Of a stretch of DNA of 47,651 nt, positions 4,747 to 45,703 are shown one piece after another. The stretch's first letter is position 1. Every line of letters starts with the position of its first letter. The position numbers were made by a program, and so were the translations under genes. The DNA comes from Candidatus Omnitrophota bacterium. GTDB lineage: Bacteria > Omnitrophota > Gorgyraeia > Gygaellales > Profunditerraquicolaceae. Where the stretch lies: the NCBI GenBank assembly GCA_028715415.1, contig JAQURX010000003.1, positions 1-47,651 of the forward strand, in the 5' to 3' direction. Below the pieces are notes generated by a model. That model had not been told where the DNA came from and did not search any database. It was given only the letters and a program-made list of their open reading frames with translations.

Positions 4747-5412
4747 TTAAAGACTTTCTATTGCTCTCAATGGGTCTTTTGCTTCTAAGATTGGTCTGCC
4801 TATGACTAAAAAACTACTTCCTGCTTTTATAGCAGCTTCTGCTGTAGCAGTGCGCTTCTGATCATCTGATTTTGCTGATTTTGGCCTTATCCCCGGAGTT
4901 ACAATTACAAAATCGCTCTTAATTTTACTGCGCAGATATGCAGTTTCTTTTGGAGAACATACAATTCCATCTAAACCGCATTGAAGTCCAAGTTTTGCCA
5001 ATTTTAACACTCTTATCGGAGAAGATTTCTGACTAGTAAGCACTGTTACCCCGATTAAAAGGGGCCGTCTTAAACCTGTTTTGCAAGATTCATCCTCGGC
5101 AGCCTTAACTGCCGCCTTAAGCATCTCCTCTCCACCTTGAATATGAAGCGTTAACATTTTTACTTTTAGACGCACAGCTGAACGCACAGCATTGGCAACA
5201 GTATTAGGAATATCAAAAAATTTTAAATCCAGAAAAACCTCGCCACCTTTCTTCCTAACCACCTCAACAATCTTTGGCCCAATCGCAGTAAATAGATGGG
5301 AGCCGATTTTAAATATTTTTATATCAGGATAAAGCTTGTTAAGAAAATACTCTGCCTTTTTAAGGCTGTCCACATCCAAAGCAAGAATTATCTTTGAGTT
5401 TATATTTTTCAT
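4747..5412 (-). CDS. pyrF: Orotidine-5'-phosphate decarboxylase
   Basis: It catalyses the last step of UMP synthesis, decarboxylating OMP in the cytosol. The 221-residue length is normal for the short bacterial class. The catalytic signature FLDLKFFDIPNTV (about 60-72) supplies Asp62, Lys64 and Asp67. LALDVD near the N-terminus and VTPGIRP and VIGRPI near the C-terminus bind the phosphate and pyrimidine. It is the last gene of the pyr operon, and its ATG overlaps the pyrD stop by 4 nt, consistent with translational coupling. Confidence 0.96.
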   Translation of the reverse strand: MKNINSKIILALDVDSLKKAEYFLNKLYPDIKIFKIGSHLFTAIGPKIVEVVRKKGGEVFLDLKFFDIPNTVANAVRSAVRLKVKMLTLHIQGGEEMLKAAVKAAEDESCKTGLRRPLLIGVTVLTSQKSSPIRVLKLAKLGLQCGLDGIVCSPKETAYLRSKIKSDFVIVTPGIRPKSAKSDDQKRTATAEAAIKAGSSFLVIGRPILEAKDPLRAIESL

Positions 5413-6356
5413 TTTTCAATTGCACCTATTAGTTCTTTTATGTCGCGAATATTATTCTCTCGGCAATATTTTTCTATGCCTTTAATTATCTCAACTGTGG
5501 CCTTTGGATTAACAAAGTTTGCTGTGCCAACACTAATCGCAGTTGCACCTGCAAGAAAGAATTCAATCGCATTTGCAGTATCCATTATACCACCCATACC
5601 GATAATAGGAATTTTAACTTTTTGAAAACACTCCCAAATCATTCTTACAGCAACCGGCCTTATCGCCGGGCCGCTTAGGCCAGCGGTTACCATGGCAATT
5701 TTAGGTTTTCTTGTATTTATATCAATACTCATACCGGAAAGAGTGTTTATTAAAGCGAGTGCATCGCTTCCGGCTCTTTCTGCTGCCAGCGCAATCTCAA
5801 CAACATCCGTTACGTTTGGAGATAATTTAGTAATTAAAGGCTTGGTAGTCAACCTACGAACAACCTTCACTACTTCAAAAGTCGCCTTAGGGTCTTGAGA
5901 AATTAGGTGCTTTGTGCTTTTATCTTGAAACTTGAAACTTGAAACATGCGACTTTATATTGGGACAGGAAATATTTAATTCAATCGCGGAAATTTCTTTT
6001 ATTTTACTTAATCGCTCAACTAGGATACCAAATTCATCAACATCTGTTTCGGAAGCAATACTTACTATTATTGGTACCCCTAACTTTTTAAGATAAGGTA
6101 ATTTATTTTTAATAAATCCTTCTAACCCGGGATTCTCAAGCCCTATGGAATTAAGCATACCCGAAGGAGTTTCACAGGTGCGCGGCATAGGATTTCCCTG
6201 CCGGGGATTTAAGGTAATGGTCTTTGTTACAACAGCGCCTAACTTTTTTAAATCAATGAAGTCTTTGAATTCCTCAACATAACCAAAAGTTCCGGAGGCA
6301 ACCATTACCGGGTTTTTGAGTTTCAATTTTCCTATATGAGTATTTAAGTTAGTCAT
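5409..6356 (-). CDS. pyrD: Dihydroorotate dehydrogenase, catalytic subunit (class 1B)
   Basis: This is the FMN-binding subunit that oxidises dihydroorotate to orotate, working with PyrK to pass electrons to NAD. The 315 residues contain VMVASGTFGY, NSIGLENPG, ELNISCPNIK with catalytic Cys131, KLSPNVTD and GMGGI phosphate binding. The class 1B assignment is supported by the Cys and by pyrK in the same operon. Oddity: the loop that usually reads GGxxFGxDP just after CPNxK is replaced and lengthened by about 10 residues (136-153), partly encoded by a heptamer array at 5924-5944. Whether the enzyme keeps full activity cannot be seen here. Confidence 0.95.
   Translation of the reverse strand: MTNLNTHIGKLKLKNPVMVASGTFGYVEEFKDFIDLKKLGAVVTKTITLNPRQGNPMPRTCETPSGMLNSIGLENPGLEGFIKNKLPYLKKLGVPIIVSIASETDVDEFGILVERLSKIKEISAIELNISCPNIKSHVSSFKFQDKSTKHLISQDPKATFEVVKVVRRLTTKPLITKLSPNVTDVVEIALAAERAGSDALALINTLSGMSIDINTRKPKIAMVTAGLSGPAIRPVAVRMIWECFQKVKIPIIGMGGIMDTANAIEFFLAGATAISVGTANFVNPKATVEIIKGIEKYCRENNIRDIKELIGAIEK
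5924..5944. repeat. Heptamer array inside pyrD (3 units)
   Basis: Three consecutive CTTGAAA units on the plus strand, encoding part of the extra loop SSFKFQ in pyrD. It is related to the arrays in pyrK and pheT, which read as GTTTCAA/GTTGCAA units or their reverse complements. Confidence 0.85.
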
Positions 6357-6727: not shown

Positions 6728-7534
6728 CTAGTCCCAGACTATTTCCTGCGCATCAAAAACCGGGCCTTCCTTACAAACTCTTTTAAACCCATTTTTCGTA
6801 TTAACAACACAGCCCAAACACGCGCCTATCCCACAAGCCATATGTGCTTCAAGCGAAAGTTGCGCAGGGATTCTATGATCTCCTGCAACTCCTGATAAAG
6901 CCTTAAGCATAGGAGCTGGACCACAGCCAAAAATAGTTGCAGGTTTCAAGTTGCAAGTTTCAAGAAAAGATACCAATAAATCCGTAGCTATTCCTTTAAA
7001 TCCTTTAGAGCCATCGTCAGTTGCAATTTCTACCTTGCAACCTAAACTCTTAAACTCCTTCTCGCAGAGTATCTGATTTTTCGTTCTCGCCCCAATCAAT
7101 ATTATTGGTTTACCTGAAACCTGAAACTTGACACTTGAAACTATTTTCTCCGCCAGAAATAACAACGGTGCTACTCCCATTCCTCCTGCAATCAAAATAG
7201 GTTGCAGGTTGCAGGTTTCAGGTTGCAAGAAAAACCCATTTCCCAATGGCCCAATAACGTCTAAATATTCTCCTACCTTTCTCGTTGAGAGAATTTTAGT
7301 AGCCTGCCCTTTAATCTCAACTAAAACTTTAAAATTCCTTCCTTTAACACTATGGATTCCTAATGGCCTGCGCAATAATGGCTCTGCTGCGTCAGAAACT
7401 TTTATCTCAATAAATTGCCCAGGTAATGCCTTCTTCGTTATATCAGAAGACTCGAGCATCAATTCAAAGAAGTCTTTGCCGATTTTCTGATTTGCTAAAA
7501 TTTTTACTCTTTCCTTAAAAATATTTTTTATCAT
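6728..7534 (-). CDS. pyrK: Dihydroorotate dehydrogenase electron transfer subunit
   Basis: A FAD and 2Fe-2S flavoprotein that takes electrons from PyrD and reduces NAD. The 268 residues show a ferredoxin-reductase-like FAD domain (RRPLGIHS, 55-62), an NAD domain (IAGGMGVAPL, about 115-124; FGCGPAPML, 202-210) and C-terminal cluster ligands Cys234, Cys239, Cys242 and Cys254 in MACGIGACLGC. Oddity: three heptamer arrays encode residues about 102-112, 131-141 and 190-200, giving the repeated peptides ETCNLQP, KFQVSG and ETCNLKP at strand or loop junctions. It overlaps the upstream methyltransferase gene by 4 nt. Confidence 0.95.
   Translation of the reverse strand: MIKNIFKERVKILANQKIGKDFFELMLESSDITKKALPGQFIEIKVSDAAEPLLRRPLGIHSVKGRNFKVLVEIKGQATKILSTRKVGEYLDVIGPLGNGFFLQPETCNLQPILIAGGMGVAPLLFLAEKIVSSVKFQVSGKPIILIGARTKNQILCEKEFKSLGCKVEIATDDGSKGFKGIATDLLVSFLETCNLKPATIFGCGPAPMLKALSGVAGDHRIPAQLSLEAHMACGIGACLGCVVNTKNGFKRVCKEGPVFDAQEIVWD
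6936..6963. repeat. Heptamer array 1 inside pyrK (4 units)
   Basis: Four units: GTTGCAG, GTTTCAA, GTTGCAA, GTTTCAA. They encode the LETCNLKPAT stretch just before the NAD-binding CGP motif. Confidence 0.85.
7113..7140. repeat. Heptamer array 2 inside pyrK (4 units)
   Basis: Four units in the opposite orientation: CCTGAAA, CCTGAAA, CTTGACA, CTTGAAA. They encode the SSVKFQVSG stretch. Confidence 0.85.
7201..7228. repeat. Heptamer array 3 inside pyrK (4 units)
   Basis: Four units: GTTGCAG, GTTGCAG, GTTTCAG, GTTGCAA. They encode QPETCNLQP just before the NAD-domain IAGGMG motif. Confidence 0.85.
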
Positions 7535-43424: not shown

Positions 43425-45461
43425 ATGAAATTTACTTACAGTTGGTTAAAAGATTTTGTAGAAGTTAAGATTCCCGCCCGTTCTTTGGCTGATAAGCTTA
43501 CTATGGCAGGGCTCGAGGTAACTTCATTAGAAGAGAAAGACGGAGATTTTGTTTTTGAGATTGAGATTACTTCAAATCGTCCTGACTGGCTAAGCGTTGT
43601 AGGTATTGCCAGAGAAGTAGCGGCGATAACTGGAAGTAAAATAAAAGTTTCAAGTTGCAAGTTTCAAGTGTCAAGCCGAAAGCCGTCAAAAAATACCGGA
43701 ATAGAAATTAAAATAGAAGACAAGAAGGATTGTTCTCTCTATACAGCTAAAATAATTAGAGATGTTTTGGTTGGGCCGTCTCCTGAATGGCTTAAGAAAA
43801 GATTGGAGCTTATCGGTTGCCGCAGTATCAATAATGTAGTAGACATCACAAATTATGTATTGTTTACTTTTGGCGAGCCGCTACACGCTTTTGATCTCGA
43901 TAAATTAAATACCGATTCAATAAACATAAGAAGGGCAAGGGCCGGAGAAAAGATTACTACTATAGATGAAAAGGAAAGAATCCTTGATGAGGGCGTTTTG
44001 GTTATCGCTGATAAAACTAAGCCGGTGGCTATCGCAGGTGTCATGGGTGGAAAAGATACAGAAGTTACAGAGTTAACAAAGAATATCTTATTAGAAGCAG
44101 CAATATTTAATCCGGTTGTAATAAGAAGGGCAAGGCAGAAATTTGGCATTCAAACAGATTCTTCGTATCGTTTTGAAAGAGGCATTGATGCCAGGGTTGC
44201 CATAGAAGCTTCTTGGCAGGCTTTGGGTTTAATTGAGAGCCTGGCTTGCGGAAAATTATCCGGTGAGAAATCAATAGGAACAGTAAGGGATTCTAAGAAA
44301 ATTATCAGCCTTAATTTGTTATCAATAAATAAAATTTTAGGCAAGGCAGTGCCCTGCGCAAAAATAAAAAACAGTTTACAGCATTTAGGTTTCAAGGTAG
44401 CAACTAAGTCAAAAGATAAATTTACAGTTACAATCCCTTCATTTAGGCAGGATGTTTCAGGAGAGATTGATTTGATTGAAGAGGTTGCGCGTATAACAGG
44501 TTATGAATCTCTTCCTGTCAGCCTTCCATCTGTTAGGCATAAGCTAAACATTGAAAACACAAAGGATTTAGCTTCTCAGATAAAAAATTTACTTATCGGT
44601 TTAGGCCTTAGCGAGGTTATAACTTATAGTCTTATAGATAGGCTTTCTCTGGATGGATTCAATTTAAATTTTTCCTCTCCAGTTGAAGTGCAAAATCCTT
44701 TAAGTAAAGAGCAGGAGGTTTTAAGGCCGACGCTTATTCCTTCCCTTAGCAAATGCGTAGCTTATAACTTAAATCAAAAACAGAGCCTTGTGAACATATT
44801 TGAAATCGCCAAAGTTTTTCTTAAAAGACAAAATTCTCTTCCGATTGAAGAGTTGGTCTTAAGTATTGCTTTATGCGGCCAAAAATCAGCGCTTTTAGAG
44901 AACGGATTGGTAAAGGATGAGATGACCCCTTTGCATTTAAAAGGGATTTTAGAAAATGTTTTTAAGTCTCTGGGGATAACTAAATATAGTTTTGATTCCA
45001 TAAATGCATTTTGCGTATCGGTGCGCGTAGGAGATGATGTGGTAGGAATGCTGGCGAAGTTGCAAAAAAGCACTTTAAATATGCTGGATATAAAGAATAG
45101 AGATTTAATCGTGTCTGAGATAAACTTAGAAAAGGTTTTAAAACACGCAAATTTAAAAAAACAATTTACCCCGCTTTCTTTTTACCCGGCGATCTTAAGA
45201 GACATAAGCCTTTTACTTAAGGAAGATATCAAGATTGATGATGTGTATAGCATAGTCAGAGAAAATGCGGGTAATTTGCTAAACCAGGTTAAAGTGGTGG
45301 ATTTTTATAAAGGTAAGCAGATTCCTGCGGGTTTCAAAAGTTTGACTATTTCTTGTCAATATCGTTTGGAAGAACGAACTTTAACTGAAGCAGAAGTTGA
45401 TCCGAAGCACGCTGTGGTTTTAAGTGCGCTCACAGAGAAGTTAGGCGCAAAAATCCGTTAG
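43425..45461 (+). CDS. pheT: Phenylalanyl-tRNA synthetase beta subunit (no OB domain)
   Basis: The beta subunit (678 residues, against about 790 usual). The N-terminal KFTYSWLKDFVEVK passes directly to EEKDGDFVFEIEITSNRPDWLSVVGIARE, so the EMAP/OB tRNA-binding domain of about 110 residues (normally after residue 40) is missing. The B3/B4 editing region (HAFDLDKL), B5, and C-terminal ferredoxin-fold anticodon domain (FYPAILRDISLLL) remain. A 28-bp heptamer array (43647-43674) encodes KVSSCKFQVSSR in a loop after the ITGSK segment. Confidence 0.96.
   Translation: MKFTYSWLKDFVEVKIPARSLADKLTMAGLEVTSLEEKDGDFVFEIEITSNRPDWLSVVGIAREVAAITGSKIKVSSCKFQVSSRKPSKNTGIEIKIEDKKDCSLYTAKIIRDVLVGPSPEWLKKRLELIGCRSINNVVDITNYVLFTFGEPLHAFDLDKLNTDSINIRRARAGEKITTIDEKERILDEGVLVIADKTKPVAIAGVMGGKDTEVTELTKNILLEAAIFNPVVIRRARQKFGIQTDSSYRFERGIDARVAIEASWQALGLIESLACGKLSGEKSIGTVRDSKKIISLNLLSINKILGKAVPCAKIKNSLQHLGFKVATKSKDKFTVTIPSFRQDVSGEIDLIEEVARITGYESLPVSLPSVRHKLNIENTKDLASQIKNLLIGLGLSEVITYSLIDRLSLDGFNLNFSSPVEVQNPLSKEQEVLRPTLIPSLSKCVAYNLNQKQSLVNIFEIAKVFLKRQNSLPIEELVLSIALCGQKSALLENGLVKDEMTPLHLKGILENVFKSLGITKYSFDSINAFCVSVRVGDDVVGMLAKLQKSTLNMLDIKNRDLIVSEINLEKVLKHANLKKQFTPLSFYPAILRDISLLLKEDIKIDDVYSIVRENAGNLLNQVKVVDFYKGKQIPAGFKSLTISCQYRLEERTLTEAEVDPKHAVVLSALTEKLGAKIR
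43647..43674. repeat. Heptamer array inside pheT (4 units)
   Basis: Four units: GTTTCAA, GTTGCAA, GTTTCAA, GTGTCAA. The unit family is the same as in pyrK and pyrD, 36 kb away and across the origin. Confidence 0.85.
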
Positions 45462-45534: not shown

Positions 45535-45703
45535 TTTATAGATTCCCTGCGGTGCGCGTTGGAAGCTTGATAATTGTTGAACCAACACCAATTAAAAGGG
45601 TACCTGCATTTTAAGTCGCTGTTAGCGTCTTAAAGAGGGTGCCCACCTGAAACCAAAACGGTTCAGACTATCATTCTAACGGCACATTGCGGGGATTTTT
45701 TTT
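45535..45703 (+). ncRNA. ssrS: Candidate 6S RNA
   Basis: The region folds as a long rod. ATTCCC and GCGGTG at the 5' end pair with the 3' CATTGC and GGGGAT, followed by eight U residues. An internal TGATA/TATCA and TGAACC/GGTTCA arm follows, then a large A-rich bubble (AACACCAATTAAAA opposite ACCTGAAACCAAAAC), and a terminal GGGTACC/GGTGCCC stem. Size (about 170-180 nt), central bubble, own promoter and position before rarA fit 6S RNA, which traps sigma-70 RNA polymerase. Primary-sequence identity was not tested, so another structured RNA is possible. Confidence 0.62.

Follow-up and report, generated by a model that had tools for sequence, protein, structure and literature searches.

Heptamer arrays with genome-specific words at fixed enzyme loops in a class of Omnitrophota

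Introduction

How can a single conserved enzyme gene hold three separate arrays of a seven-nucleotide unit, each 28 bp long and thus one nucleotide more than a multiple of three, and still keep its reading frame? The question is raised by pyrK in a stretch of 47,651 nucleotides from a Candidatus Omnitrophota bacterium (contig JAQURX010000003.1 of assembly GCA_028715415.1; class Gorgyraeia, family Profunditerraquicolaceae), which we call the window. Degenerate heptamers are known from STRRs, which are mainly intergenic, and in-frame insertion into unrelated protein-coding genes is known from the Rickettsia palindromic elements, which are long palindromes of one sequence family. An earlier note, based on the letters of the window, had found the pyrK arrays to be more like the latter and had suggested, together with arrays in pyrD and pheT, a dispersed, actively spreading family of protein-coding repeats. 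Here we follow the arrays through the genome, the class and the phylum and ask how they arise.

Results

Arrays in pyrK and elsewhere in the window

The genes and arrays concerned are the following (window coordinates).

6728-7534, minus strand: pyrK coding sequence (dihydroorotate dehydrogenase B electron-transfer subunit), supported by open reading frame, Pfam, PDB and AlphaFold; hosts three arrays
6936-6963, plus strand: heptamer array 1, GTTGCAG GTTTCAA GTTGCAA GTTTCAA; peptide ETCNLKP, PyrK loop 3 (residues ~191-201)
7114-7141, minus strand: heptamer array 2, GTTTCAA GTGTCAA GTTTCAG GTTTCAG; peptide KFQVSG, PyrK loop 2 (residues ~133-143)
7201-7228, plus strand: heptamer array 3, GTTGCAG GTTGCAG GTTTCAG GTTGCAA; peptide ETCNLQP, PyrK loop 1 (residues ~103-113)
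5925-5945, minus strand: three-unit GTTTCAA array inside pyrD (coding sequence 5409-6356, minus strand; Pfam DHO_dh)
43647-43674, plus strand: array GTTTCAA GTTGCAA GTTTCAA GTGTCAA inside pheT (coding sequence 43425-45461, plus strand; Pfam B3_4/B5)

The pyrK product matches Pfam DHODB_Fe-S_bind (E 3.7e-17) and NAD_binding_1, and its top PDB match is 1ep3_B PyrK (E 4.3e-35). We could confirm that the gene carries three in-frame arrays of four units in both orientations with the peptides given above; one unit of array 2, GTGTCAA, is imperfect. Runs of at least three NTTNCAN units occur four times in the window and runs of at least four units twice, compared to 0.025 and 0, respectively, in first-order shuffles. 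The arrays in pyrD and pheT are likewise real and in frame, and the one in pheT belongs to the same word family as those in pyrK.

In the AlphaFold model of PyrK (pLDDT 86) all three arrays fall into turns linking secondary structure elements, where the confidence dips: loop 1 connects strand 90-97 to strand 113-117, loop 2 is the turn from helix 118-133 to strand 144-149, and loop 3 the turn from helix 183-193 to strand 201-204. A search of the window with Rfam returned nothing beyond tRNAs and 6S RNA, the latter at 45541-45699 (plus strand) just 3' of pheT, with eight tRNA matches elsewhere in the window.

An array family dispersed through the genome

The pattern (GTTKCAR)x3 matches 30 times in the 1.85-Mb genome and (GTTNCAR)x2 61 times, while the reversed controls of both have no match. 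Counted as at least two exact adjacent units, the two-unit matches resolve into 27 GTTKCAR arrays, with none for the reversed control; this count, far above the control, bears out the dispersed repeat family suggested from pyrK, pyrD and pheT. The arrays lie on both strands, and their units vary at two positions only (K and R), each with two states. An array caller that allowed one mismatch per unit, run on the fetched sequence of this genome, yielded 29 arrays: 22 of them have four units, three have three, three have five and one has six. Under a geometric distribution of equal mean only about seven four-unit arrays would be expected (p about 1e-8).

More than half of the arrays (16 of 29) lie within open frames of at least 200 codons, many of these inside conserved genes; the hosts are pyrD, pyrK (three arrays), pheT, purD, folC (two), porA, leuS and other long frames. 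Further arrays are located between genes, some of them in spacers near start codons. The description as a protein-coding family consequently holds for the majority but not for the whole, since the arrays outside genes, often convergent pairs, belong to it as well. Sites are clustered: among 23 independent sites seven neighbour gaps are shorter than 5 kb (1.3 expected, p 0.0002), and contig C3 holds ten of the 23 (2.2 expected, p 2e-5). As to active spreading, recent dispersal is strongly implied, but it is deduced from the arrays; movement itself was never observed. A second word, GGCACAA/TTGTGCC, is present in this genome at L218:4236-4330 and L366:1279-1296, near GTTKCAR arrays or apart from them.

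Convergent pairs between genes

Outside genes, arrays are often paired in convergent orientation; this genome contains five such pairs. When close pairs on opposite strands (within 150 bp) were collected from this genome, Flavobacterium, other phyla and viral contigs, 32 of 34 were convergent with GTTKCAR first; not all of the 34 are independent, and the p value of 7e-8 is optimistic because some of the viral and Flavobacterium loci are related. The outer ends of the pairs are sharp, 5'-GTTTC...GAAAC-3', in very different hosts. The phase is fixed too: the first base of an array is the G of its unit, and extension upstream through the C of the unit is rare. Hairpins are found only for the intergenic pairs, and the copies in coding regions are solo direct repeats of ~28 bp. 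Since the arms of the C4 pair, judged by eye, fail to compensate each other, we make no claim of a selected hairpin.

The same loops carry different words in relatives

Three-unit GTTKCAR arrays are present in only 13 of 384 genomes of the phylum and in none of roughly 70 other members of the family. They are also found in many other phyla and in viral contigs, but as the reversed word likewise forms arrays in 8 of the 384 genomes, this sharing is not strong evidence for transfer. The viral contigs L250-L345 include long GTTKCAR runs (L301, L312, L315) and convergent pairs. Reversed control patterns match several times in G203, G264, G322 and G348, all of one genus, and in G232 and G388, i.e. 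these genomes have further genome-specific heptamer words.

The PyrK genes of the same family have arrays at the identical three loops, built from different words: CCCAAAA and ACTATCG in G104, ACTTACA in G089, CCAAACA in G384, AAACGCA in G244 and CAGCTTA in G108. Other families and orders of the class show arrays at the same PyrK loops, for instance AACTCTC in two loops of G057, and PurD and FolC behave likewise, with period-7 arrays at the same loops and differing words. In 110 PyrK, PurD and FolC genes (118 kb) we detected 72 arrays of period 7, eleven of period 8 and one of period 10; synonymous-codon shuffling of the same genes, which keeps the protein, left 3.6 period-7 arrays. Nearly all arrays fall at residues 103-113, 133-143 and 191-201 of PyrK, 376-386 of PurD and 94-103 and 210-221 of FolC. 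The conserved feature is the 7-bp period (rarely 8) at fixed loops; the words, one or a few per genome, are genome-specific. Neither of the two outcomes that would have contradicted the note was obtained: relatives do not share the PyrK peptides through other codons, and the genome-wide count lies far above the control. The GTTGCAG/GTTTCAA-type word is the version of this genome only.

Random 20-kb samples showed an excess of period 7 in some genomes (G063, G108 and G120) and none in others; array activity is therefore uneven. Some loop arrays of the relatives (PyrK L230, L232, L238 and L242; FolC L447 and L455) enclose a further short element, a GC-rich palindrome of CCTGCCTRYCCGGCAGGCAGG type or a comparable GC-rich inverted repeat.

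Words recur at unrelated loci of one genome

The 72 period-7 arrays comprise 56 distinct words. A common consensus of all words, suspected by eye, was dropped, because the chance fit is high and the words are so many. Of 49 pairs of arrays at different loops of one genome, 13 (27%) have the same word, allowing for one mismatch, against 3.5% after permutation; labels were shuffled within loops, and none of 2000 permutations reached the observed value. Words recurring at unrelated loci of a genome have therefore been copied about. The pattern CAGCTNN illustrates this with 37 matches in G063, 32 in G120 and 13 in G108 (all CAGCTTA), compared to none in the genome of the window. Eleven of the CAGCTTA arrays of G108 were fetched (L512-L522); they are perfect, 31-38 bp long and all located in open frames. 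Several of them, translated as LTAYSLQ repeats, apparently make up the hydrophobic core of a signal peptide. Array words do not fit the loop in which they occur, in its empty versions, any better than they fit empty versions of other loops, and in this comparison of words and loops no microhomology between word and site was detected.

Net length change and reading frame

The PurD loop is 17 amino acids long in 15 genomes, none of which has an array there, and 24 amino acids long in ten genomes, six with a detectable array and four in which it looks decayed. Across relatives loop 2 of PyrK is mostly 13 or 20 amino acids long and loop 2 of FolC mostly 16 or 23-24. In all three cases the length classes lie seven residues apart, and the net gain therefore is 21 bp or three units. 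The repeat run in coding loops spans 25-35 bp and exceeds this gain; the part beyond 21 bp replaces, or coincides with, host loop sequence. The puzzle posed by a 28-bp insertion is resolved in this way: the frame is kept, but the net gain relative to empty relatives is 21 bp and not 28.

In 27 PurD genes from Bacteroidota, Acidobacteria, Gammaproteobacteria and Nitrospirota, taken from genomes selected for carrying GTTKCAR arrays elsewhere, the loop is 17-18 amino acids long and holds no 7-bp array. The insert is therefore derived in the lineage studied here, and the empty loop is the ancestral-like state.

Discussion

Comparison with known repeats

Heptamer arrays dispersed in bacterial genomes have been described previously. 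Those of Xanthomonas (GGGAATC) and Nostoc (GGGGA(C/T)T) are 89-93% intergenic and were discussed as G-quadruplex formers (Rehm et al. 2015, PMC4692102). They resemble the arrays reported here in having a 7-bp unit with fixed and variable positions, dispersal on both strands, a four-unit mode, frequent convergent pairs and prominent arrays that are poorly conserved between species (PMC4692102). In contrast, the word of the genome studied here is not G-rich, over half of its arrays are coding, some of them in essential genes, and a given loop holds different words in different genera. The TAACTGA direct repeats of Beggiatoaceae, cyanobacteria and Bacteroidetes (MacGregor 2015, PMC4679880) are likewise short dispersed heptamer arrays, patchy over phyla, often in spacers, occasionally in frame and suspected to be mobile; however, they are mostly found just 5' of start codons, where a translational role has been proposed, and their in-gene copies lie mainly at protein ends (PMC4679880). 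The arrays described here are located in internal enzyme loops, in both orientations and with turnover of the word. The arrays are thus similar to the heptamers dispersed in Xanthomonas, Nostoc and Beggiatoaceae, from which they differ in not being mostly intergenic.

P6b repeats share the degenerate heptamers, a hairpin of complementary arms and a varying copy number; they sit in an intron RNA stem, unlike the present arrays. The Rickettsia palindromic elements turned out to be a poor model. In-frame insertion into unrelated coding genes is common to both, but the coding copies here are direct heptamer repeats of ~28 bp with an arbitrary word and a net gain of 21 bp, and not long palindromes; they work only loosely like the Rickettsia elements and are not members of that group. 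An earlier survey, as far as it is cited in PMC4692102, found heptameric simple sequence repeats to be over-represented in bacteria and treated them as slippage products. To the extent of that citation the excess of period 7, which is not a multiple of three, is the same, but the words studied here are common to several loci and the unit number is set near four. In the literature searched, with subscription papers outside its scope, we found no account of heptamer arrays that occupy fixed enzyme loops throughout a class and switch their word.

How the arrays arise

Local replication slippage, a hypothesis quoted in PMC4692102, would explain the 7-bp step as the footprint of the polymerase, and an array would grow from a heptamer already on site and be filtered for frame. 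Over-representation of period 7 in many bacteria (PMC4692102), copy number shifts in frame-keeping steps and the variation of units within arrays are in agreement with it. We nevertheless regard slippage as improbable, since unit counts peak at four without a geometric fall-off (p about 1e-8), words are common to separate loci of a genome and they fit their own site no better than others. Arrays could also be selected sites. They might be bound by an RNA-binding or nucleoid protein, a role suggested for the TAACTGA repeats, or serve as uptake or segregation words, and would persist in genes where they are tolerated. The restriction of variation to two states at K and R, the arrays in spacers near start codons, as in Beggiatoaceae (PMC4679880), and the resemblance of species-specific words to uptake sequences point in this direction. 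However, a genome holds no more than about 27 arrays, which lie in both orientations; words turn over completely between related genera, the closest relatives lack the word, and many copies, some apparently decayed, lie in loops of unrelated enzymes. Selection for a site therefore has little probability in our view.

The convergent pairs raise the possibility of a non-autonomous mobile element moved in trans, with the pair G(TTKCARG)n-loop-(CYTGMAA)nC as its unit and the solo genic arrays as half-elements, comparable to REP/BIME or miniature transposons. The near-constant convergence of close pairs, their sharp outer ends in very different hosts, the fixed phase and the four-unit mode fit such an element, and Y1 transposases, which accompany REP/BIME (RAYT), are present in the genome of the window. 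Yet 15 of 17 genomes have Y1_Tnp matches irrespective of their arrays: in G210 arrays occur without a match, and in G051, G216 and G236 matches go with few arrays or none. The lack of a correlation makes a Y1 transposase unlikely as the driver. Furthermore, no gene family recurs beside the arrays in more than four of ~130 loci, the coding copies are solo and not hairpins, and words that change between genomes leave no fixed recognition sequence, which argues against a sequence-specific transposase; a mobile element thus seems rather unlikely. An enzyme of the DRT10 type, which synthesises tandem-repeat DNA with 9-nt repeats on a short RNA template (PMC12632851), could in a telomerase-like reaction generate cDNA that is captured at breaks, and would account for words that are specific to a genome and lie in both orientations. 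The presence of several unrelated words in one genome speaks against it, and RVT_1 is absent from the genome of the window and from 15 of 16 other genomes searched, array-rich ones included, with G108 as the only one to have it. Telomerase-like reverse transcription was rejected for this reason and has a very small probability.

In our best reading the short dispersed arrays behave like sequence-arbitrary insertion cassettes, and we favour, with a probability of about one half, a model in which about four units at a time are copied and inserted in the course of replication or repair, with reading frame and fold acting as filters. Donor arrays as the source, as opposed to slippage on site, are supported by the words shared between loci, by the local clustering of arrays and by the absence of a better fit between a word and its own site. 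In this model a donor array already present would supply about four units (about 28-33 bp) that are inserted elsewhere, preferentially nearby, and the resulting array would then decay by mutation. Purifying selection would eliminate copies that break frame or fold, so that survivors would be those in surface turns, signal peptides and gene spacers. A function of the arrays in the host protein would not be required. Among the genomes examined, one per species, no pair of donor and recipient was caught. Template switching alone leaves the fixed number of four units, the fixed phase and the sharp ends of convergent pairs unexplained, and these features look more element-like. It might be possible, and we suggest this tentatively, that a dedicated cellular process, indifferent to sequence and working in inherent steps of seven nucleotides, copies some four units of whichever array is resident to new genomic sites, provides each genome with a word of its own and is a major source of new loop sequence in essential proteins throughout the class.

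Taken together, the data point to a putative, hitherto undescribed process of copying, by which proteins throughout a bacterial class would continue to be edited. The bacterial excess of 7-bp repeats has been noted before, without a tested explanation. The arrays described here lie in conserved genes that can be aligned, so that one can measure whether a loop is empty or filled, what its net length is and which word it carries, making slippage, copying, transposition and selected sites directly testable. A defined process at the DNA level repeatedly gives rise to insertions in surface loops of core enzymes, and peptides such as FQVSSFK and NPKPETR in these lineages are consequently footprints of DNA repeats and not conserved motifs.
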